Of a DNA stretch of 64,000 bases, positions 6,758 to 51,157 are shown piece after piece. Position 1 is the first letter of the stretch. Every line of letters starts with the position of its first letter. The notes under the pieces are model-generated. The model did no database searches and was not told the DNA's origin. It saw only the letters and a program-made list of their open reading frames with translations. The stretch is taken from assembly GCA_963989385.1 (NCBI GenBank), contig OZ022506.1, forward strand, positions 65,297,434 through 65,361,433. Reading direction: 5' to 3'. The DNA comes from Ctena decussata. Its lineage: Eukaryota; Mollusca; Bivalvia; Lucinida; Lucinidae. The position numbers and the translations under genes are program-made.

Positions 6758-7300
6758 TTAATCTACAGTAGAAATAACCCTCAAGAAAAAATAGCGCAAC
6801 CTGTTTGACCCTTCAGTGTTCAAATGCAAACCTTTGTCAAGTTTTGCAAATAAATATCTTCTGAAGGTACCAAACTTCACAACAGCCTTGTATGAGGAAA
6901 TGAATTTAAAATTCAAATCTTGACTCATAACAGTGTCCAAATGACTATTTACTTTCTTAATCATCGGATCTGTAATATTATGTTCTATAGGTCTAGGCAA
7001 AATGGAAGAAAGAATTATTCTGATATCTTGATTTTGACGGCGTATTATTGCTATAAGGTTAGCATAATCAGATATTATATTATCAAAGCTGTCACGTTTG
7101 CCAATATTATTTGTACCAACATGAATTATCATGTAATCAAAGTCCTTCAAATCAATGCTGCCATTAGATATCAATATGGCTAATTTCCCAATTGTGGCAC
7201 CTGGAAATGCCTTAAGAGTGACTCCATCAATGTGTGAAATATCCTTAATAATGGAATCTCCGACAATCACAACTTTTCTGCATTCTGCAAAATATAGAAA
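6758..7300 (-). CDS. SGNH-fold hydrolase domain of the Ngaro-like element
   Basis: About 170 residues matching the SGNH/GDSL esterase fold. Counting from the GTG at 7270: GDS with Ser6 (block I), AFPGAT (Gly, block II), HVGTNN (residues 50-55, block III) and DKGLHLN near 145-151 (block V). Block V is odd: Asp145 and His149 are one residue further apart than the usual DxxH, and the position that aligns with the usual Asp is Lys146, so activity is uncertain. The frame is open only back to a TAA at 7301-7303 and has no ATG before GDS. A TTTTGCAG acceptor-like site ends at 7285, so this may be a spliced exon. Role in transposition is unknown; such domains may deacetylate or cleave esters. The opposite-strand frame here is a shadow. 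Confidence 0.75.
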   Translation of the reverse strand, partial: FLYFAECRKVVIVGDSIIKDISHIDGVTLKAFPGATIGKLAILISNGSIDLKDFDYMIIHVGTNNIGKRDSFDNIISDYANLIAIIRRQNQDIRIILSSILPRPIEHNITDPMIKKVNSHLDTVMSQDLNFKFISSYKAVVKFGTFRRYLFAKLDKGLHLNTEGSNRLRYFFLRVISTVD

Positions 7301-8560: not shown

Positions 8561-9571
8561 TTAGGAGCTGACAGAGGACTGTTTTTGAATGAATCGCCTC
8601 ATTTCTTTGGCAACAAGTAATTTATCCTCAAATTCAAAATTCAAATATTTTCTATAACAGTCCGATTTCCAGTCACCTAACAGTTTAATTTTATCTGCTG
8701 GAATTTTAGCCCGAAAGGCAAGACTTGCACCACCCCTCCTAAAGGAATGAGTGGAATAAAGACTGGGATTCAGTCCAATTTTTTCAACACACTGTCTCAA
8801 TTTATTCTGAAACTGAGTATATGTAACTATACTCATATTTGGTAATAAAAATAAAGCGTTATCCTGAGAACTTGGAACTGCTTTACACATATTTCTATAC
8901 GCTTTAACTGGGCATAAAATGGAGTCTTTAATTTTAACCAAGGGAATTTCAAGCTTTCTTTCACCTTTTTGAATTGTTTTTGTCCAGCTGAAAGTGACTA
9001 TTAAGTAGTTACCAAAATCTTTAACATCTCGTCTAAGAAGGAAATGTTTTAAACACAAGTCACTTTTTGAGGCTGGCACCAAATTTGATTTTCTTGCTAA
9101 TAAGAAAAAGGCAAAAAGAAACAAACACCAGAAAACTATATCAGACTTGTCAGATAAATTTAAAACAAAACCGATTTGAACAAGTATGCGCGGAGTTAAC
9201 GCTTCAGCTTGTTTAACACAATGCTGTTTAAGTCTAGCTATTCCTCTGTATGACAAATTTAAAATGAATTTATTTATTTGCTCTACTGGATGCCCTAAGA
9301 TTAAATGCATTGTCTTAACACCATTAATGTAATTTTTTATTGATTCCACTGATTTAAAAGTTCTACTTAAAAACTGAGCATACAATTGTAACGTCTGAGT
9401 GGAAACTGGTAAACTAACAAACTGAAAGTAATAACAGAATAATAGAAAAGACTCCCATTGTGTTCTTAAATTCTTTCTCGTCCCCAATGCAAAGGCAGCT
9501 TGATTTGAATGGTGCAAATCTTCTCTCAGAGCTCGTAGCTGACTCTCTGAAAAAACAATTACCATCCTCAT
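8561..9571 (-). CDS. Tyrosine recombinase (integrase) of the Ngaro-like element
   Basis: 336 residues, intact. The C-terminal half carries the phage-integrase-type catalytic set: Arg in LLARKSN (about residue 160), HSFRRGG (His and Arg of HxxR), GDWKSDCYRKYL with the Tyr nucleophile, and a Trp at the usual H/W position. The N-terminal part is the helical core-binding region. Such enzymes integrate a circular cDNA without staggered target duplication. It starts at ATG 9571, in the same frame as the upstream RNase H but behind TAATAG (9583-9578), so it is translated separately or by re-initiation. Confidence 0.92.
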   Translation of the reverse strand: MRMVIVFSESQLRALREDLHHSNQAAFALGTRKNLRTQWESFLLFCYYFQFVSLPVSTQTLQLYAQFLSRTFKSVESIKNYINGVKTMHLILGHPVEQINKFILNLSYRGIARLKQHCVKQAEALTPRILVQIGFVLNLSDKSDIVFWCLFLFAFFLLARKSNLVPASKSDLCLKHFLLRRDVKDFGNYLIVTFSWTKTIQKGERKLEIPLVKIKDSILCPVKAYRNMCKAVPSSQDNALFLLPNMSIVTYTQFQNKLRQCVEKIGLNPSLYSTHSFRRGGASLAFRAKIPADKIKLLGDWKSDCYRKYLNFEFEDKLLVAKEMRRFIQKQSSVSS

Positions 9572-9580
9572 AGCATACTA

Positions 9581-10117
9581 TTACCAGGAATTAATAAACT
9601 GAAAATGTGATTCATCAACAAAATATTCTTTTAAAACATGTTCCTTTGTCAGCTCTAAGAAGCACTGCTCATGTATTGGACTTTGATGCCATCTTGACAA
9701 ATGATCTGCCAAACGGTTAGAACATGTATCTAAATGCTGAACTCGTATTTCAAACTCATACAGAGCAGCAATAAAACAAATCTCTCTCAAACATTCCTGC
9801 AGAATTGTACATCTTGATCTGCCAGAATTGATAAGTTGACAAGCAGCCATATTGTCACAAAACACTACTATTCTCTTGCCTTTGTAATTCTTGCCCCAAA
9901 GCTTTAGACATATAATAATGGCTATGACTTCTAATGCTGTGATATGGAAAGCTTTGTCTCTAAATTGAGATGGAAATTGAACATGAACAAAGGATCCCAT
10001 CCAAAATCCCCCACAACCTTCCAAACAAGCATCAGAAGAAAATACAGAATCCGGAGCTGACCACTGTTCAACCTTCATCATGGAAATGCCATTGTACAAA
10101 GGCAAAAATCTATGCCA
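9581..10117 (-). pseudogene. RNase H domain, split from RT by an indel
   Basis: The reading begins in the WWHRFLPLYNG motif that normally follows RT in the same DIRS/Ngaro polyprotein. It then shows the RNase H acidic residues: Asp in FSSDACLEGCGG, Glu in ALEVIA, Asp in FCDNMAA and Asp in LADHLSRW. The domain removes RNA from the RNA-DNA hybrid during cDNA synthesis. RT ends at a TAG at 10110 while this frame reads the same bases one register off, and no start codon fits, so a small indel near 10117-10123 has broken a fused RT-RNase H frame. The domain itself has no stops. Confidence 0.85.
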
Positions 10118-11336
10118 CCAAATCAGGTCTTTTTTTCACAAACTCTGGAATAACATGCTGCTGTAATTTGGAACCATGAATGGACCTAAGCCACCACAAC
10201 AATCTTGAAACAAATATTCTGCTAGGCTTGACACAAGCTGCAACAAAATTCAGCTTACCCAGTAAAGACTGTATTTGCTTAAGAGTGGCAGAAGTCTTGC
10301 CTAACCACATATGCACCAAGTCTTTAATTTCCACAAATCTATCAGGAGTAACCTCTATAGTCATGGTAATAGTGTTAAATAACACTCCCAGAAATACCAT
10401 AGTTTGTGACGGAGGCACAGATTTATCCAGTGTTTCCTCAATGCCACATTTCTGTAAAACAGCACCTAAACAGTGATATGCAAAAAAGGCCCTATTTTGT
10501 GTTTCAGCACCTGCCAGATCATCTAAGTAATTCAAAATTGAAATTCCTATCTGAAACATCATAAAGGAAATAGCGTTTGTCACTCTTTGACAGATATGAG
10601 CCGCAGACCGTAAGCCCATACTTAAAACTGTATCACAAAAAATGTGTTTTCCCCAGATAAAAGATACTAAATTGTAGTTAGATGGACATATACTAATTTG
10701 TCTGTAAGCCTTTCTTAAATCTTTTTTAAAAAGAAAACAGCCTTCACCTTTCGTTTTAATCAGTTCTACTAAATCATCTACTTTTGGAAATATGACTGAA
10801 ACTTTCTCATTCAAATAAATGTCCTTATTTATATTGTCATTAATAGAAGCTGTTTTGGGGTAACTTAAATCTAAAATGACTCTTCTTTCTGATGAATCTT
10901 TCTTTGGAACAGAATTTAATGGCGACAAGATTAAGTTATTAGAAAAAGGATTTGATTTAAAAGGACCTAAAATAGAATTTGTTTTGCTTTCTTTTTCTAA
11001 ATATTGATTAATTTCATCTGAAAATTCAGAAGCTCCTTTATGATTTTTATATTGCCAAATATGATCATGTTTTGGCAATGAATTTTCATTACCTGAAAAT
11101 CCTATGGGGAATCCAAATTCTAATAAATCACATACCAAAATGTCCTTATAATCCCTTAGCATTTTTCTCATATAATTTACATTGATCCTATTATTGACTG
11201 GAATTCGACAGTGTTGAAAATTAAATTGTCCTGATTCTTTAACCAATTCGTGAATGTAAACTTTATTTTCGGTATCACTTACAGATAAACCTTTAACTGA
11301 ATTGCAAATTTTACAAGAATTTGAATGGCGACACAT
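10110..11336 (-). CDS. Reverse transcriptase of the Ngaro-like element
   Basis: 408 residues from ATG 11336. RT motifs in order: LSPLNSVPKKDSSERRVILD (fingers), FLFKKDLRKAYRQI (motif A, catalytic Asp), FIWGKHIFCDTVLSMGLRSA (motif B region) and LNYLDDLAG, the YxDD catalytic box. A thumb/connection segment follows (LGVLFNTITMTIEVT). The N-terminal CRHSNSCKIC is cysteine-rich. It copies element RNA to cDNA. The frame stops just before the WW motif that starts the RNase H segment, where an indel has shifted the frame. Gag lies about 100 bp upstream in other frames. Confidence 0.93.
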   Translation of the reverse strand: MCRHSNSCKICNSVKGLSVSDTENKVYIHELVKESGQFNFQHCRIPVNNRINVNYMRKMLRDYKDILVCDLLEFGFPIGFSGNENSLPKHDHIWQYKNHKGASEFSDEINQYLEKESKTNSILGPFKSNPFSNNLILSPLNSVPKKDSSERRVILDLSYPKTASINDNINKDIYLNEKVSVIFPKVDDLVELIKTKGEGCFLFKKDLRKAYRQISICPSNYNLVSFIWGKHIFCDTVLSMGLRSAAHICQRVTNAISFMMFQIGISILNYLDDLAGAETQNRAFFAYHCLGAVLQKCGIEETLDKSVPPSQTMVFLGVLFNTITMTIEVTPDRFVEIKDLVHMWLGKTSATLKQIQSLLGKLNFVAACVKPSRIFVSRLLWWLRSIHGSKLQQHVIPEFVKKRPDLVA

Positions 11337-11440
11337 TTTAGATTTTGTTTTGTACTGGAGCTATTACTGTTAATATAACTGGGCAAAAAACTATCTGCTA
11401 CAGGATTATGTAAAGTCTCTGTACTAATAGTAGTTGCCAG

Positions 11441-23412: not shown

Positions 23413-23780
23413 TGTTGTTTTTCCTTTCTTGTATACAGTGAAACCTCATTCTAATGCACTTACAAATATAACGCGACGTCTGATTGGATAACGTAAAAAA
23501 TTTGCGACAGTATATTCTGTGATATACTGTTGCAAACCCTACGTCATTTAGAAACCTTGCTTCTCATTGGCTGGCGCATAGTTTTATGCAGCTGAAAGCG
23601 CTTGCTATGGGTGCAAAGTAGCACTCTTTTATGTCGCAGTAAAACGAAATTTCCGACCATAAAACCGACGATTTACCTACCCAAATTACAATTTTGAATA
23701 CAGTTATCCCCTAATTTGTTGTTTTTCCTTTCTTGTATATAGTGAAACCTCATTTGTTGTTTTTCCTTTCTTGTATACAG
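23413..23780 (+). promoter_or_regulatory. Triplicated 3' splice-acceptor sequence
   Basis: TGTTGTTTTTCCTTTCTTGT followed by ATACAG or ATATAG occurs at 23413-23438, 23717-23742 and 23755-23780. The third copy is directly before the BTB exon. Copies 2 and 3 are a 38-bp tandem duplication. Between copies 1 and 2 lies about 280 bp that looks inserted, with a 30-bp palindrome near 23503-23535. Use of copy 2 in phase 0 would meet TGA at once. Confidence 0.8.
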
Positions 23781-25035
23781 GACTGTGACACGTTACTTTT
23801 GGAATCTTCAGCATATTCATCACAGATGTTGAAAGCATTTCATACAATGCAAAAGGAGGAAAAATATTGTGATGTTCACCTTGTGACTCCTTTGAAGATA
23901 TTTCCTCTTCATAGAATAATAGTAATGGCCACTGCACCATCATTATTGAATATACAACAGCCAAGTATGAATAACAAATATATTGTATATGTTATGAATG
24001 TTGTACCGTCAGTCATTGAGGCCGTGATACACTTTATGTATACAGGTGAATTGAAAGTGAAAAAGTCTGAAGCTTCGCTAATGAAAACTTTTTGTGAAAC
24101 TTTAGAGCTCAGAAGTGCTCTTGAATTACTCATGAGCTATTCAGAGCAACCACGAGCAGCTTCAGATAGTCGCAAGGAAGATGAATGGATATCGGATTCA
24201 GTAAATGCTTCTATCATTGAGGGAAAAGATAAATCGGCCAAGGAAGAAAATCTAAGTGATAAGTCAAATGTTTTAAAAAAAGGAAATGTTACTGAAAGTT
24301 CTATGGTATCCAAACCAATGCCAGCCAGACTAACGCAATCCCTTGTGGAGAAGAAAGAAACTAACAGTCACTTGAAAAGTTTAATTTTAAAATCAAAATC
24401 TAATGAACAAAATGTAAATATTCAGAAAAGGATGCACAATAATTTAAAGAGGGTAAACACATCATCTCTTTCATGTAAAGACAAAAGACAAGAACTTAAA
24501 CATAAAAACTTTAAAGGATCAGGAAGTAATAATAGCGAAAAGAGAGGAGAAGTCAATAAAAAGTCAAAAGATTCAAACAGTAGTAGTGGAGAGAGTGAAA
24601 AGGTACGTAAAAAGCCAATTGAATCAAATAGTGATAATGGAAAAGAGACAGAGAAAATCCATAAAATGACCGAAGATTCAAACTGTAGTAGTGGAGAGGG
24701 TGAAAAAGTATGTAAAAAGTTGATGGAATCAAATAGTGATAATGGAAAAGTGACAGAGAAAAAACATAGAATGACCAAAGATTCAAATAGTAGTAGTGGA
24801 GAGAGTGAAAAAGTATGTGAAAAGTCGATATTTGGAAAAGAGGTAGGGAAAATCCACAGAATGACCAAAGAATCAAACAGTGCTAAAGAAGGCAGAAAAC
24901 GCTTGCGTAAGAGAAAATATAAAAGAAAGAAAGCTCCTAGACTGTTTGATCCAGAATGTGATCATAATTATGCAATACCCGGTGGTAAAAAACATATTAT
25001 TATTGTTGGTAATCCAGCTGTAAATGGAAGAGATG
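23781..25035 (+). CDS. BTB zinc-finger gene, BTB/POZ and linker exon
   Basis: Encodes about 418 residues, phase 0 in, phase 1 out (donor GTGAGT at 25036). Numbering from ATG 19595, residues 30-140 form a BTB/POZ fold: KYCDVHLV with Asp50, FPLHRIIVMATAP with His63, and AVIHFMYTGEL around 106. BTB domains dimerise and recruit co-repressors or cullin-3. The linker is Ser/Lys/Glu-rich and holds two and a half to three tandem 35-residue repeats (SNSSSGESEKV...ESNSDNGK, about 24570-24870). A basic cluster (GRKRLRKRKYKRKK) that probably is a nuclear localisation signal comes near the end. The antisense frames are shadows. Confidence 0.9.
24565..24880 (+). repeat. Coding minisatellite in the BTB-ZF linker
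   Basis: 105-bp units, two full and one shortened by about 15 bp, encode a 35-residue Ser/Lys/Glu-rich repeat. The period is a multiple of three, so the frame is kept. Copy number may vary between alleles. Confidence 0.85.
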
Positions 25036-25439
25036 GTGAGTAGAGAGAAAATTCAGGTTTCTTTTATGCTTTCCAGACGAATATAGAGATTTCTCAATGA
25101 AACAAATCTTGATAAACAGTAAAAGACAAAAATTCTCTTATTCACTCAGTGGATTTTTACTGTTATTTTTTCTTTTTTGTAAGATTCATCTGATTTAGTT
25201 ATTGATAATTGGCTGAAACCAGTGAAATGTCAGAAATTGCTCGACATTCGATCACATGCTGTGATGATATTCACGACGTCACTTATAGCGCTTTCATACT
25301 TGTTTACAGTGCATATTTTACCTAATAAATATCTGCACTCCACCGAATGCGCACCTAGGAGAAAAGCTGATTTTCTATGATGATAATTATTGATTGAAAA
25401 GAGCCAAATTGTTGTGGTTGTGAGCATAAAAGAAACAGG

Positions 25440-25610
25440 AAATTTGATTTTTTTTTCTTTCAGTATCAGATAGAATTTTATTTCACTCATGATAAAACTA
25501 GATCAGAGTGCTATTTTTACTTATGGCTATGCAACTAGTGAAAATAGTGCTATTGGTGTTTATCTGGTGAAATAAAATTTGATCTTTCACTGAAAAAAAA
25601 ATCAAATATC
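25440..25610. mobile_element. MITE-like inverted repeat in intron
   Basis: AATTTGATTTTTTTTTCTTTCAG...TTTTATTTCAC is mirrored by GTGAAATAAAATTTGATCTTTCACTGAAAAAAAAATCAAAT. It ends about 40 bp before the next exon. Confidence 0.7.
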
Positions 25611-25649
25611 CTCTATGACTTCTACTGTTCTAAAAAGTGATCACTGCAG

Positions 25650-26104
25650 CAGATGAGGAAACAAGACTTGTTTGCACTGTTTGTAAGAAAAGATTTCTTG
25701 CAGAAAGAAATCTACGGCTACATATGATTAGAATACATGAGATAGATGAGGATAAAGATAAGTTTCAGGTCTTAAGATGCAACTTATGCAGCTATAAAGT
25801 TTTTAGAACACAGAAACGGCTTGCTCAGCATATGATAAATGATCATGGAGTAACAGATACCAAGTATACAAAGATTGCAAGGAAAGTTACTTGCCGAACA
25901 TGTCAGTATGTGTCAAGTACTTATCGAGGACGGCTACGGCATGAATACGTTAAACATGGTGTTCAGTACAACTATGGACTGAAGGTTGCTTTCCGGTGTT
26001 CTGTATGTGGGAAAGTTTTGTCGTCAAGTAAGAGACTGAAACTCCATCAAATGAAATACCACGGCCTGAAGAGAAAAGTGATGACATGCCCATGTACGTT
26101 TGAG
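25650..26104 (+). CDS. BTB zinc-finger gene, zinc fingers 1-4 and start of 5
   Basis: The acceptor CACTGCAG precedes 25650 and the donor GTAAGT follows at 26105. Phase 1 in matches the previous exon (G plus CA gives Ala); phase 0 out. Four C2H2 fingers, all with HxxxxH: LVCTVCKKRF..HMIRIH (Cx2Cx12H), LRCNLC..HMINDH (x13), VTCRTC..HEYVKH and FRCSVCGK..HQMKYH. The exon ends after CPCTFE, giving the first Cys of finger 5, which the exon at 38953 completes. These fingers would bind DNA. Confidence 0.92.
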
Positions 26105-26164
26105 GTAAGTTTGGGGTTGTGGTTGGGCCATGGTGCTGGTTATAACTTCCAGTGCCAGGGCGTC

Positions 26165-27265
26165 CTACTTATTATACCCCTACCGAAAGGTTCGGGGGAT
26201 ATAGTGATGAGCCTGGCATCTGTTTGTCTGTCCGACCATCTGTCTGTCTAACTGTCTGTCTGTAAATATTTTCTTGTCATATATCTTGAATACCCTGTGG
26301 AATATTTTGATGATATTTCACAGGTCATGACGATGTGTCACATAAAAAAATGGCAACTCCTGCTGTCATTGTCCTTTTTGAGTTATTTCCCCTTTGGTGA
26401 TTTTCTGGCAGATTCATGTCCGTTCTATAACTTGAATACCCTTGCAGATATGTAGAACAGGTCATGACGATGTGTGGCGAACAAGATTGACACCTTTTGC
26501 TTTCTTTCTTTTTTTTGAGTTATTCCCCCTGATGGTTTTAGGTATGATTTCAGGTCTGCTTTGTAACTTGAATACCTTTTGAAATATTTTTCTTGATACG
26601 TCACAGATATGTAGAACAGGTCATGATGCTGTGTTGCAAACAAGAATGACAACTCTTACTTTGTTACTTTTTTAGTTATCTCCCCTTGGTGGTTTTAGCT
26701 GTGATATCATGTCCGCTCTATTTCTTGAATACCTTTTGAAATGTTTTCATGATACTTGACAGATATGTAGAACAGGTCATGACAATGTGTCGAGAACAAG
26801 AATGACAATTCTTGCTTTCTTCCTTTTTGAGCTATTTCCCCTTTGTGGTTTTAGGTGTGCACTCCATAACTTAAATACCCTTTGAAATATTTTCATGATA
26901 CTTTACAGATATGCAGATTATGTCATGACAGTTTGTCTCATACAGGAATGACAGCTCTTGCATTCATACATTTCGAGTTATTTCCCTTTTGAAGTTTAAG
27001 CTGCAGTTTGTGTCTCTGCTCCATGTCTGCATGACCTGGGCCTGCCCCACAATTTTAATACCCTTATAACTTTTAGAATATTGATGATCATGTCATGATA
27101 GCGTATCAGTGTTCCTAGCCCTCTGTGACCCCACAGCATCCGAATTGATTGTTTATTTTTTGTTTTATTGAGGTATGAAGGAAACCCCAAAGTGCACATT
27201 GTAGTTCTTCATACAAAAGAGTTCACAAGGTTTTATGCTCCCCCCCCCCCATCAGCATGACCGAG
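26165..27265. repeat. Modular element, ATACCCCTACCGAAAGG type
   Basis: Starts TTATACCCCTACCGAAAGGTTCGGGGGATATAG and a GTCTGTCTGTC leader. It has about five modules of about 150 bp with TAACTTGAATACCCTTTGAAAT, ATATGTAGAACAGGTCATGA and GAGTTATTTCCCC. It fades out near a C-run at 27240. Confidence 0.8.
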
Positions 27266-39309: not shown

Positions 39310-39513
39310 TGGATGGATGGATGGATGACTTGCGATTTTACGTCCTTTTCAACAGTATTTCAGTCATATCAGGACGATGGGCTTGTGATAATGAAAGGCT
39401 GTGTGCAATGGAACCCCGTTTACGATGGAAAGAACTCCGCCTCCAGCGGGGCTCGAACCCGCGACCGCTAGATCAGTAGGCCAGCGCTTAACCCACTGAG
39501 CTACCGGGGCTCC
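39310..39513 (-). mobile_element. tRNA-derived SINE, about 204 bp, with 13-bp target duplication
   Basis: On the minus strand: GAGCCCCGGTAGCTCAGTGG, a tRNA-like head with B box GGTTCGAGCCC, and a (ATCC)n tail. Flanked by TAAGTTAACGAGA at 39297-39309 and 39514-39526. Same family as 44086-44290. Confidence 0.9.
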
Positions 39514-41824: not shown

Positions 41825-42498
41825 GTATCAATAAGGTGTGTTTTCTGCATCCTACCAAAGTTTTATTTTTTTGACTGGTGGTATACTCCAGTGTGTCTAG
41901 TTTATTGAACCATATGTGACTTTGGTCGAAAAGCCCTAGTTACTGAGCTATTGGTCCACAGAAGTGGGTAAGGTAATTCAGCATGGTTTTAGCTGCCTGG
42001 TCTTGTAAAAATAGTCTCATTTGGTAGAAAAGTACAACAGACAGCAGACAGTGTTAGATAAAATGATAAACAGAACATCTAAAATGTATTTCCATATCAT
42101 TTTATTTTGTTTAATTTGAATATATTTGGTCAAAAAAGACTTCCTTTGGCGTTCAGCATGTTTTGATGTTTTTGTCCTCTATTTTCAATATTTCTTTACA
42201 TCATTGCTAAATATACTGACCAGTAATCATCAAACTCATGTCAAGGAAGCACCTTGACCAGTACCATTCGGTGATGTGACCAGAATTTTACAATGGCCTA
42301 GTTTTCATGGTTGACTGAACACAAACGTGCTTAAAAGATGGTTATAGTAAATTTTATGACCTTGAATTACGAAATTTTGGTCAAATTAATATCTTAACTG
42401 CTATATTATGCCCCACACCCCCGCCACTAAAGGTGAGAGAATATATACTGGCTTCAGGTCACATGATCAACATGGCCACAATGCCCATATATGGTAGA

Positions 42499-42961
42499 AA
42501 ATAATGATAAAAGTTTAGATCCTTTAAGAGCAAAGAAAACATTCATAAGTAAGAAGTTGGGCCATACCGCGGTTTCGGCTATTCAAGCCTCATCAGTGAC
42601 CCTTTAAATCTGGCACAAGGAGCCAGAGGAAAAAAACAGTAAATTTGCAGGTTTAACATGGCAGTCGTCTCAAAGACTGATATAAGTCGAAAAATACCAA
42701 AATATTTCAAATTTGTTTAGAAAATGAATCTAAACGTATGATCATTTCTGACTTCTCAGAATATATTCCATGATCTCAAAGGACCAAAAGGAAAATATAA
42801 TCTGCACTATAGATGAGTGCGGGGAGACTTTTTACGGCCGCCACACGGCACAACATCCAGCTGCAGTGATAGTAAATAATGATAAAAGTTTAGATCCTTT
42901 AAGAGCAAAGAAAACATTCATAAGTAAGAAGTTGGGCCATACCGCGGTTTCGGCTATTCAA
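42499..42961 (-). mobile_element. Retrozyme-like insertion: 1.2 units of a 375-bp hammerhead monomer
   Basis: 42499-42586 and 42874-42961 are identical 88-bp direct repeats, 375 bp apart, so the insertion is a full monomer plus a partial one in tandem. The complete unit junction carries a perfect type I hammerhead on the minus strand. The other arm of the surrounding inverted repeat lacks the insertion (continuous ATGGTA...AACTTTAAAAATC), which fixes its borders. Small size, tandem form and no protein match metazoan retrozymes; the frame at 42770-42991 is not convincing as coding. Confidence 0.85.
42559..42602 (-). ncRNA. Type I hammerhead ribozyme, complete
   Basis: Read on the minus strand: stem I GGGTCA / TGGCCC (6 bp, one G-T), core CTGATGA, stem II GGCT-TGAAT-AGCC (4 bp), GAAA, stem III ACCG/CGGT, then A as residue 17. 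Cleavage is expected between 42565 and 42564, after GTA. All invariant residues are present. Confidence 0.93.
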
Positions 42962-43511
42962 ACCTTTAAAAATCTTCTTAAAAACAGTTGACCAATGGCC
43001 TTGAGACTTGCTATGTAGCTTCAGGTACTCAAGTTCTTTCAAGATTGTTCAAATGATGACCTTGGATTGACCTTGACCATTTTTTACGGCAAGGTCAAAT
43101 ATTGGAAAACGCTAGAACATAAGATTTCATGGGAAGTTTTGAAGATTTTGGCTTAAAAATTGGTATATACAGTTGACTTAATGACATGGCCACAATGCCC
43201 ATATATGGTAAAAACCTTTTAAAATCTTCTTCTTAAGAACTAGTTGACCAATGGCCTTGAGACTTCGTAAGTAGCATCAGATACTCAAGTTCCTCCGAGA
43301 TTGGTCAAATGATGACCTTGATTTGACCTTGACCTTTTTTACGGCGAGGTTAAATATTGAAAAATGCTAGAACATAAGATTTTATGGGAAGTTTTGAAGA
43401 TTTTGGCTTAAAAATTGGCATATACAGTTGTCTTAATGAGCTCATGAAGAATTATGAGTACAAGAGGTCAAGGTCATTCTTTGACCTTTGACCCATGTTT
43501 CTCATATTTTG

Positions 43512-43790
43512 GCCGGGCCGCGTAGCGCAATCGGTAGGGCACCTGACTCATAAGTCAGAGGTCCTGGGTTCGAAACCAGGTCTGGCCATTTACCTTCGTT
43601 TCTCCTTCCGCTGATTCAAGAAGGGCAGTTGTCAGCTACTGGCGAAAGTATGTGCACTTAGTACTGGTTAACCGCTGAGGAGGTCTTAGCCTGCCCAGGA
43701 ATAGTGTGGTTAGGTTAACTGACCGTCCCGACATGACTATAGCTGTTTACCGTGGACGTTAAGCACCAAATCAAACAAACAAAAACAAAA
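43512..43790 (+). mobile_element. tRNA-derived SINE with Met-like head (CAT anticodon position)
   Basis: The head pairs GGCCGGG with TCTGGCC as acceptor stem, with A box GTAGCGCAATCGGTAGGGC and B box GGTTCGAAACC. An extra base distorts the anticodon arm. A body of about 190 bp follows (GACATGACTATAGCTG, GACGTTAAGCACC), then a (CAAA)n tail. CATATTT-like flanks may be the target duplication. An independent functional tRNA gene is less likely. Confidence 0.8.
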
Positions 43791-44085: not shown

Positions 44086-44290
44086 GGAGCCCCGGTAGCT
44101 CAGTGGGTTAAGCGCTGGCCTACTGATCTAGCGGACCGGGTTCGAATCCCGCTGGAGGCGAGAATCTTTCCTACCGTAAACGGAGTTCCATTGCACACAG
44201 CCTTTCATTATCAACTTCCCATCGTCCTGATATGACTGAAATACTGTTGAAAAGGACGTCAAATCGCAAGTCATCCATCCATCCATCCAT
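44086..44290 (+). mobile_element. tRNA-derived SINE, 205 bp, with perfect 12-bp target duplication
   Basis: GGAGCCCCGGTAGCTCAGTGG head, GGTTCGAATCCCGC B box, (ATCC)n tail. Flanked by CCTTTTTTGCGG at 44074-44085 and 44291-44302. Same family as 39310-39513, opposite strand. Confidence 0.93.
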
Positions 44291-45307
44291 CCTTTTTTGC
44301 GGCATTGTCAAATATGGGAAAATGATAGAACATATAATTTCATGGTTCTTAAGAAGAAGATTTTTTAAAGGTTTTCACCATATATGGGCATTGTTGCGAT
44401 GTTGTGGCCATGTCATTAAGTCAGCTGTATAGTTTTAAGCCAAAATTGTCAAAAAATTCCCATGAACTTTTATGTTCAAGCGTTTTCCAATATTTGACCT
44501 TGTCGTAAAAAAGGTTAAGGTCAATCCAAGGTCATCATTTGAACAATCTTGGAAGAACTAGAGTACCTGATGCTACTTAGCAAGTATCAAGGCCATTGGT
44601 CAACTGGTTTTAAGAAGAAGATTTTTAAAGTTTTTTTACCATATTTGGGCATTGTGGCCATGTTGATCATGTGACCTGAAGCCAGTATGTATTCTCTCAC
44701 CTTTAGTGGCGGGGGTGTGGGGCATAATATAGCGGATAAGATATCAATTTGACCAAAGTTTCGTAATTCTAGGTCATAAAATTGACTATAGCCATCTTCT
44801 AAGCAAGTTTATGTGTTTAGTCAACCATGAAAACTTGGTCATCGTGAAATTCTGGTCACCTCATCCAATGGTACTGGTCAAGGAGCTTCCTAGACATGAG
44901 TTTGTTGATTACTGGCTAGTTTATTTAGCTTTGATGCCAAGAAATATTAAAAATAGAGGACAAAAATATCAAAAAATGCTGAATGTCAAAGAAAGTCTTT
45001 TTTGACGACATGTGTTCAAATTAAACCAAATAAAATGATATGGAAATACATTTTAGATGTTCTGTTAATCATTTTATCAAACACTGTCTGTCTGTTGTAC
45101 TCTTCTACCAAATGAGAACATTTTTACAAGACCAGCTAAAACCATGTTGAATTACCCCACCCACTTCTGTGGACCCCTAGCTCAGTAACTAGGGCTTTCC
45201 GACCAAAGTCACATATGGTTCAATAAACCAGACACACTGGAGTATACCATCAGTCAAAAAAATAAAACTTTGGTAGGATGCAGAAAACCCACCTTATTGA
45301 TACCCCC

Positions 45308-49376: not shown

Positions 49377-51157
49377 TTTTTTTAGCTGACCTGAGCCAGC
49401 GGCTCCGGGGGAGCTTATAGGATGGTAAGGCTCCGGCGTCCGGCGTCCGTCCGTCCGTCAACAATTTCAAACGACTTCTCATCTGAAACCGCTGGGCCAA
49501 TTGTAACCAAATTTCATATGTAGCCTCTAGGGGACTTAGGAACGAAAAGTTGTTCAAACAGTCCTGGTTACATGACCAACATGGCCGCCACGCCAATATA
49601 TGGTAAAAACCTAGAAAAATCTTCTTCTCCAGAACCAATAGGCCGATGGCCTTGAAACTTGGTGTGTAGCATCAGTAACGCGAGTACTACCAAGATTGTT
49701 CAAATTATGACCTTGGGTTGACCTTGACCTTTTTTACGGTAATGTCAAATTTGCTATCTTTAGCCTTTATATGGGAAAATGCCAGAACATAAGATTTCTT
49801 GGAAACTGTTGAAGATTTAAACCTGAAAATTGGTATATACAGTCACCTTAATGAATGCATGAAAATTAATGCGTACAAGAGGTCAAGGTCATTGTTTGAC
49901 CTTTGACCCTGGTCTCTCATATTTTGACAATTTCACACATCTCCTCAAAAGCCACTGGGCCAATCGTAACCAAATTTCATATGGAGCCTCAGGAGGCTGA
50001 GGGAACGAAAAGTTGTTCAAAGGGTCCTAGTCACATGATCAACATGGCCGCCATGCCCATATGGTAGAAACCTAGATAAATCTTCTTCTCCAGAACCAAT
50101 AGGTCAATGGCCTTGAAACTTGGTATGTAGCATCAGGTACGCGAGTACCACCAAGATTGTTCAAATTATGACCTTGGGTTGACCTTGACCGTTTTTACGG
50201 TAAGATCAAATTTCCTTTTTTAGCTTTTACAGTCCAACCTGTATTAAGCAAGCACCTAAGGGATAAAAAAATCTGCTTGCTGAAGACATGTGCTTTCTGA
50301 ATACAGGTACATGTCAATGTATTTGCCTGTTTTGGTGACTGAATACATGCTTGCTTAATACAGGTTGCTTGCTTAATACAGGTGGCCCCAAAGACAGGTT
50401 TGGGAAAATGCTAGAACATAAGAATTCTTGGAAACTGTTGAAGATTTAAACCTGAAAATTGGCATATACAGTCATCTAAATGAGTACATGAAAATTTATA
50501 TGTCCAAGAGGTCAAGGTCATTCTTTGACCTTAGACCCTGGTCTCTCATATTGTGACATCTGCTCAAAAGCCACTGGGCCAATTGTAACCAAATTTCATA
50601 CAGAGCCTCTAGGGACTGAGGGAAAGAAAATTTGTTCAAACAGTCTTGGTTACATGACCAACATGGCCGCCATGCCCATATATGGCAAGAACCTTTACAA
50701 ACCTCCTTCTCAAGAACCAAGTGATCGATGGCCTTGAAACTTGGTATATAGCATCAGGTACTTGAGTACTATCAAGATTATTCAAATGATGACCTTGGGC
50801 TTACTTGATCTTTTACAAGGCAAGGTCAAGTATGGGAAAGTTGTAGAACATAAGAGTTCATGGCAAGTTTAGAAGATTTTGGCCTAAAAATTGGTATATA
50901 CAGTCATCTTAGTTAGTACATGGAAGATTTGCGGGTACAAGAGGTCAAGGTCATCCTTTGACCTCTGACCCAATGTCTCTTATATTTTGACAATTTAAGA
51001 CGTCTTCTCAAAAGCCACAGGGCCAATCGTAACCAAATATCATACACAGCCACCAGGGGCAGATGGAACGAAAATTTATCAAGCGGTCTAGGTCACATGA
51101 CCTACATGGCCACCATACTCAGGTGAGCGGTTCAGGGCCTCGTGGCCCTCTTGTTTT
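49377..51157. repeat. AGCTCACCTGAGC-family element, nested copy 2
   Basis: TTTTTTTAGCTGACCTGAGCC start, directly after copy 1 across a T-run. Same modules; end CTCAGGTGAGCGGTTCAGGGCC, then GGCCCTCTTGTTTTT. Contains the MITE at 50229-50396. Confidence 0.88.
50229..50396. mobile_element. MITE inside nested copy 2
   Basis: AACCTGTATTAAGCAAGCACC at the left is mirrored by GCTTGCTTAATACAGGT at the right, present twice. Sister modules (49750, 48000) lack it, giving an empty site in CTTTTATATGGGAAAATGC-like sequence. A TA target duplication is likely. Confidence 0.78.

Follow-up and report, generated by a model that had tools for sequence, protein, structure and literature searches.

The 64,000-nt stretch of Ctena decussata DNA analysed here (the window) carries a recently active retrozyme belonging to a new family of the metazoan non-LTR kind, a kind of element already known. 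Across one hundred insertions of one genome the start is defined, the stops are dispersed and the ribozyme is a likely site of pausing, and we consider it probable (roughly 0.78) that an RNA circle is copied from a fixed internal start over a variable number of turns, giving partial and tandem insertions. The family has one type I hammerhead per unit and tandem repeats within the ~150-450 bp typical of the class, from dimers upward, with GC under 50%. Its size, hammerhead type, low GC and tandem layout thus fit the metazoan type I hammerhead retrozymes among which the preliminary description had placed it (PMC7229834, cited here and below from its available text).

The window insertion and its hammerhead

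The borders of the insertion were read by alignment with 11 unfilled copies of the host repeat in the window. When the flanks are joined at AAA the host repeat is recovered with no base lost or added, and the unfilled copy at 50030 has the same GGTAGAAACC variant as the joined flanks. The net gain at the locus is 462 bp, that is, a 459-bp body plus a 3-bp duplication. The preliminary description had reported a 463-bp insertion; the insertion itself stands but its size is corrected here, because A's common to the element and the target had been counted at both ends. Its account of 1.2 copies of a 375-bp unit with identical ends holds, the period being exact over 88 of 88 bp (42499-42586 = 42874-42961), as does its observation that the opposite arm of the inverted duplication lacks the insertion: the empty site is seen in that arm, as a gap between the arm matches, and in ten further copies of the host repeat in the window. 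The unit, numbered from the first base past the ribozyme cut (nt 1), has a GC content of 37.6%, and no open reading frame of at least 110 aa overlaps 42501-42959.

Between the two arms of the inverted duplication, 71 of 872 aligned bases (8.1%) have diverged, compared with none of 88 between the two unit ends; the latter has a probability of 5.7e-4 if the ends are as old as the arms. The insertion is therefore younger than the duplication, the order originally proposed, unless gene conversion acted.

Table 1. Features of the retrozyme insertion, in window positions
Feature	Position	Strand	Basis or remark
Retrozyme insertion body, ~1.2 units	42501..42959 (459 bp)	- (sense strand = minus)	375 period; joined flanks restore host repeat
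Target duplication AAA, 3 bp, left copy; doubles as element microhomology	42498..42500		Comparison with 11 unfilled copies
Target duplication AAA, 3 bp, right copy	42960..42962		Comparison with unfilled copies
Full 375-nt unit, cut to cut	42565..42939	-	nt 1 = 42939, nt 375 = 42565
Complete type I hammerhead (from sequence)	42559..42602	-	Predicted cut 42565/42564, GUA triplet
5'-truncated hammerhead copy	42934..42959	-	Broken off in loop II; cut site 42940/42939, stem III and 3' strand of stem I present, CUGAUGA absent; pairs with core of complete copy in predicted minimum-energy fold of transcript
Weak predicted hairpin, -4.8 kcal/mol, unit nt 19-58, just upstream of start site	42507..42546	-	
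Element 3' end = inferred reverse-transcription start, unit nt 64-66	42499..42501	-	Empty site fixes window copy; 98/100 loci agree
Putative start-site sequence of unit			AUUAUUUACU
Empty site, inverted arm	44619..44631	-	Gap separating arm matches; alignment

The predicted hammerhead is composed of a 6-bp stem I, CUGAUGA, a 4-bp stem II, GAA and a two-pair stem III (A-U, C-G) capped by a palindromic CGCG loop, an arrangement described for invertebrate hammerheads (PMC7229834). A strict stem-and-core scan matched the window only at this motif, which had been called a complete type I hammerhead and whose core and stems appear intact; 6 matches were obtained in 200 first-order random windows. 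Rfam returned no hammerhead at the gathering score, nor at E <= 5 in 42450-43010, nor at E <= 10 in the whole window, so that the Rfam hammerhead models miss the motif despite a core that, judged by its letters, is complete. The hammerhead pattern gave no match in viral contigs and 17 in prokaryote genomes, none of them having stem I and stem II together.

Several neighbouring features of the window were also recorded. At 8561-11360, adjacent minus-strand frames carry a reverse transcriptase (PF00078) and weakly match, below cut-off, a tyrosine recombinase (PF00589); they are accompanied by a GDSL-lipase-like frame at 6758-7297. We take the 8561-11360 frames to resemble a DIRS/Ngaro-type retrotransposon. 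Three tRNA-like sequences lying within repeats (39438-39510, 43516-43588 and 44089-44160; two over the Rfam cut-off and one just under) are possibly SINE heads. At 23715-26251, a long frame whose beginning is BTB-like is followed by a C2H2 zinc-finger-like frame, these domains being named by eye.

One fixed and one dispersed end

In the genome (1,657,992,415 bases, or 1.66 Gb, in 245 contigs) the hammerhead 38-mer is found 1163 times without mismatch and its reversed control not once. Tandem 375-bp copies, whose absence from the rest of the genome was to count against the proposal, were found in arrays of up to 10.75 units. Among 1285 first-look candidates, 40 scored loci contain 54 units identical to the window unit, itself included. 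To these 40 loci, which include the window, we added 42 from contig C1 (the remainder of the 48 arrays of that contig holding the exact 38-mer), 8 from contig C2 and 10 further, short C1 loci picked by an exact tail word and without an exact hammerhead. The resulting 100 insertions were thus selected by unit identity, exact hammerhead or tail word, and include at least one duplicated locus (L111/L112). They range from 0.15 to 10.75 units in length (56 to 4032 nt), and 27 of the 57 C1 loci are shorter than one unit. Two loci of the sample, L040 and L059, have 3' flanks that are 99.9% identical over 796 bp and unrelated 5' flanks.

Under strict alignment the 3' end falls within unit nt 61-72 in 98 of the 100 loci, most often at nt 65 (30 loci), nt 67 (20) or nt 66 (18); with a less strict alignment, 85 of the first 90 loci have it in the fixed zone. 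The exceptions are L107, which stops at nt 44, and L113, which is ~9% diverged and without a clear end; with L085 these two were excluded from the counts made on 97 loci. The elements end in this fixed unit sequence, without poly(A). We found no description of a fixed 3' end of metazoan retrozymes in the available text of PMC7229834, PMC11167929, PMC7761336, PMC4918200 and PMC8490949.

The 5' ends, by comparison, are scattered over the unit (Rayleigh p 0.88, n = 90; 0.78, n = 87; 0.14, n = 97, including the ten short loci). Among the 97, five end at nt 366 and four at nt 10, two pile-ups that flank the hammerhead strands (p 0.0014 for the coincidence; Poisson p multiplied by 375 positions, 0.003 and 0.057, respectively), in a sample that favours 5' ends near the hammerhead because the ten short loci were chosen without an exact one. 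These pile-ups look like enzyme pauses at the ribozyme stems.

A copy-number step independent of the fetched sample was seen across the whole genome. Counted at <= 2 mismatches, the 33-mer of nt 33-65 is present in 1459 copies versus 718 for the 33-mer of nt 75-107 (controls 0). The step would correspond to ~740 insertions, and part of it may be owed to the two words being unequally conserved. Altogether, the ends suggest a fixed starting point for reverse transcription, ~65 nt beyond the ribozyme cut on its 3' side, and termination at almost any position.

Template, target and a model for insertion

The ribozyme cut is traversed by each of the 72 loci that span one unit or more, and the 5' end lies within 5 nt of the cut in only one of them. 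Since 5' ends do not accumulate there, the template must have been joined across it, either as a ligated circle or as an uncut multimer. In favour of a circle, no array mixes alleles at the two commonest SNPs (nt 51, 0/65 arrays; nt 289, 0/48; five with the minor allele in each case; permutation p < 1/20000). Three arrays are uniform at a spacing of 374 or 376 bp, and among the arrays with at least two spacings 14/24 are uniform and 10/24 mixed. Excluding L085 and L113, 30 variant sites within arrays are common to all covering units and 133 occur in part of the units; at seven family-polymorphic sites, the tally is 14 shared and 11 mixed. The excess of mixed variants and the mixed spacings speak against a circle. 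New mutations account for part of this mixing, and the test does not separate a circular from a multimeric template. The circular minimum free energy of the unit is -88.9, versus -75.0 +/- 4.8 for 100 shuffles, and circular RNAs of such elements have been published for a mussel (PMC7229834).

Immediately beyond the start, flanking bases match the unit more often than background (63% versus 31% at nt 66; 56% versus 32% at nt 67), and readable empty targets agree with the start over a short T/A-rich stretch (window, TTT; L028 and L049, TTTTC; L099, TTA). L028 and L049 have different 5' ends and struck the same base of a ~168-bp satellite, the neighbouring units of which provide the empty site. 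The AT excess of the flanks in general is small. Duplications of at least 9 bp were found at 2/97 loci (17 and 19 bp; control 0) and of at least 6 bp at 8/97 versus 2.5 expected, and the long duplications of L063 and L118 also contain a match to the start site. A search for target-site duplications in the first 40 loci gave no excess over shuffled pairs, L063 excepted. The duplication in the window is 3 bp long; for metazoan non-LTR retrozymes more than 4 bp is expected when one is present.

Two other origins of these insertions were weighed. In one of them, which we regard as improbable, the template would be a linear, uncut or incompletely cut multimer with an RNA 3' end at nt ~65 made by processing or termination, copied by ordinary target priming with no circle. 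A defined RNA end would equally yield the fixed 3' end, but we found no cause for an end at nt 65. Hammerhead mutants of a Penelope-like element of Anolis leave in vitro insertion unchanged, unprocessed RNA being taken as the substrate (PMC11167929), whereas the hammerheads of published metazoan retrozymes cleave co-transcriptionally (kobs ~0.1-0.8 per min) and their circles are abundant (PMC7229834). The uniformity of the arrays at two common SNPs fits a single circle, although a uniform donor array would produce it too. Repair-mediated insertion of pieces of satellite arrays or of extrachromosomal circular DNA, without reverse transcription, is hardly credible: tandem units, little target duplication and junction microhomology are all in keeping with it, but random pieces should not give one fixed and one dispersed end (98/100 loci), nor is a twofold copy-number step across ten bases expected.

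In the favoured reading, that is, copying of an RNA circle from a fixed start, the hammerhead would cut transcripts of genomic copies into 375-nt RNAs that are then ligated into circles. A nicked target end with a short T/A-rich match would anneal to the circle ~65 nt 3' of the cut, and the reverse transcriptase would start there and run for 0.15 to ~10 turns, as the fixed 3' and dispersed 5' ends indicate. Insertions made in this way would be partial or tandem and would duplicate the target little or not at all, and the window copy would be a product of 1.2 turns.

With a start downstream of the hammerhead, products longer than ~450 nt hold one core and two cut sites. The same layout of a single core and two sites is seen among the 97 loci in L080 (449 nt) and L105 (464 nt), while L074 (446 nt) starts just within the cut-site strand. 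As the window copy has one catalytic core, it could release a 375-nt RNA only if the upstream partial copy acts as a substrate. Ensemble prediction for the transcript plus 100-nt flanks has the core forming stem I with the upstream site at a probability of 0.85 (15°C), 0.96 (25°C) and 0.98 (37°C), alongside a stem III of 8 bp (0.92-1.0 at 37°C); pairing of the core with its own site is predicted at <= 0.02 while the upstream part is present. Once the upstream part is removed at the cut, the core's own stem I is predicted to form at 0.90 (15°C), 0.86 (25°C) and 0.53 (37°C). The single core may therefore cut the upstream site, refold and then cut its own, releasing 375 nt. We put this ordered two-cut model forward as a hypothesis, because the programs omit the tertiary fold and disfavour the native stem III of a single hammerhead; for the isolated hammerhead, the drawn fold has -10.7 kcal/mol versus -14.4 kcal/mol for an alternative minimum-free-energy structure.

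A wider joint reading is offered tentatively, as one that we would not yet back. The mobility of animal retrozymes may depend on a circle that is made by the ribozyme and reverse transcribed in rolling fashion from a fixed start ~65 nt 3' of the hammerhead, a Penelope-like geometry that would call for a Penelope-type partner. The smallest heritable product would then be a 1.2-mer, whose one core would cut two sites in order, with an 8-bp stem III spanning both copies and then alone, and so free one circle-ready unit.

The autonomous partner and known systems

Authors of the retrozyme family describe repeats without a conserved motif indicating an autonomous partner (PMC7761336, available text), and Penelope-like elements have been proposed as a strong candidate (PMC7229834). 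By analogy, an internal start 3' of the hammerhead would support the published proposal that retrozymes are mobilised by Penelope-like elements. LINE-type machinery in place of a Penelope-like one seems to us doubtful, yet it has points in its favour in the two loci of 97 with long duplications (17 and 19 bp) and in the 15-bp duplications of Nematostella repeats, which were termed LINE-like (PMC4918200, cited here and below from its available text). Most loci, however, show no duplication above control, the elements terminate in unit sequence rather than poly(A), and one Penelope-like element is reported to start internally, 3' of its hammerhead (PMC11167929).

No autonomous partner was found by a GIY-YIG search of the same genome among the 150 scored of 926 candidates. 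A reverse-transcriptase fragment (P0001) gave at least 899 candidates, 150 of which were scored, so that a minority of the Penelope-like families was covered. Two abundant families of this type, with frames of 774 and 766 aa (L125 and L126), were rejected as partners, having no significant sequence in common with the unit and no hammerhead, and again on their target, since their 3' ends lie in (TA)n. These ends are at position 270 (5 loci) and 315-316 (5 loci) in the 774-aa family and at position 230 in 4/5 loci of the 766-aa family, the fifth running on. Neither a hammerhead nor a tail in common with the unit was present in the upstream sequence of four more GIY-YIG loci (L142-L145).

The 774-aa family is of some interest in its own right. 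Compared with L125, the ten loci L127-L136 have two alternative 3' ends 45-46 nt apart, five loci each and always in (TA)n, which resembles the two start sites and 'tail' of Anolis (PMC11167929). Tandem Penelope-like elements at a 3681-bp spacing, many with an open 774-aa frame, form two opposed arrays at C2:2587885-2621697.

The partner question is now one of direct biochemistry, namely which reverse transcriptase starts on a 375-nt RNA at nt 65, and the pattern of fixed start and dispersed stops is a genomic signature to seek in other animals.

Among known systems, plant LTR retrozymes are likewise non-autonomous and hammerhead-processed, with a proposed circular RNA intermediate; they differ in having type III hammerheads within LTRs, a PBS and PPT, and 4-bp duplications (PMC4918200), and the one fixed and one dispersed end of the present family are unlike LTRs. 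By their description, the retrozymes of Mytilus galloprovincialis resemble the present family in having a type I hammerhead, ~350-390 bp repeats, low GC, thousands of copies and no LTR reported; in contrast to it, the available text makes no mention of a fixed 3' end (PMC7229834). The criterion of a Penelope-like element is a coding sequence for reverse transcriptase and GIY-YIG, which the present family lacks, and only its internal start resembles one. Anolis PAc, the only Penelope-like element studied in vitro, encodes its own enzyme, whereas nothing obvious is coded in the 375-nt element, and the PAc hammerhead consists of stems I and II (PMC11167929). The two share a start inside the RNA 3' of the hammerhead, partial-tandem copies and an AT-rich target. 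In PAc the cut is at +26 and the start at +111-118, that is, 85-92 nt apart by subtraction, compared with ~65 nt here, and its start site is said to be non-homologous to the cleaved DNA (PMC11167929), whereas short matches are seen in the present family.
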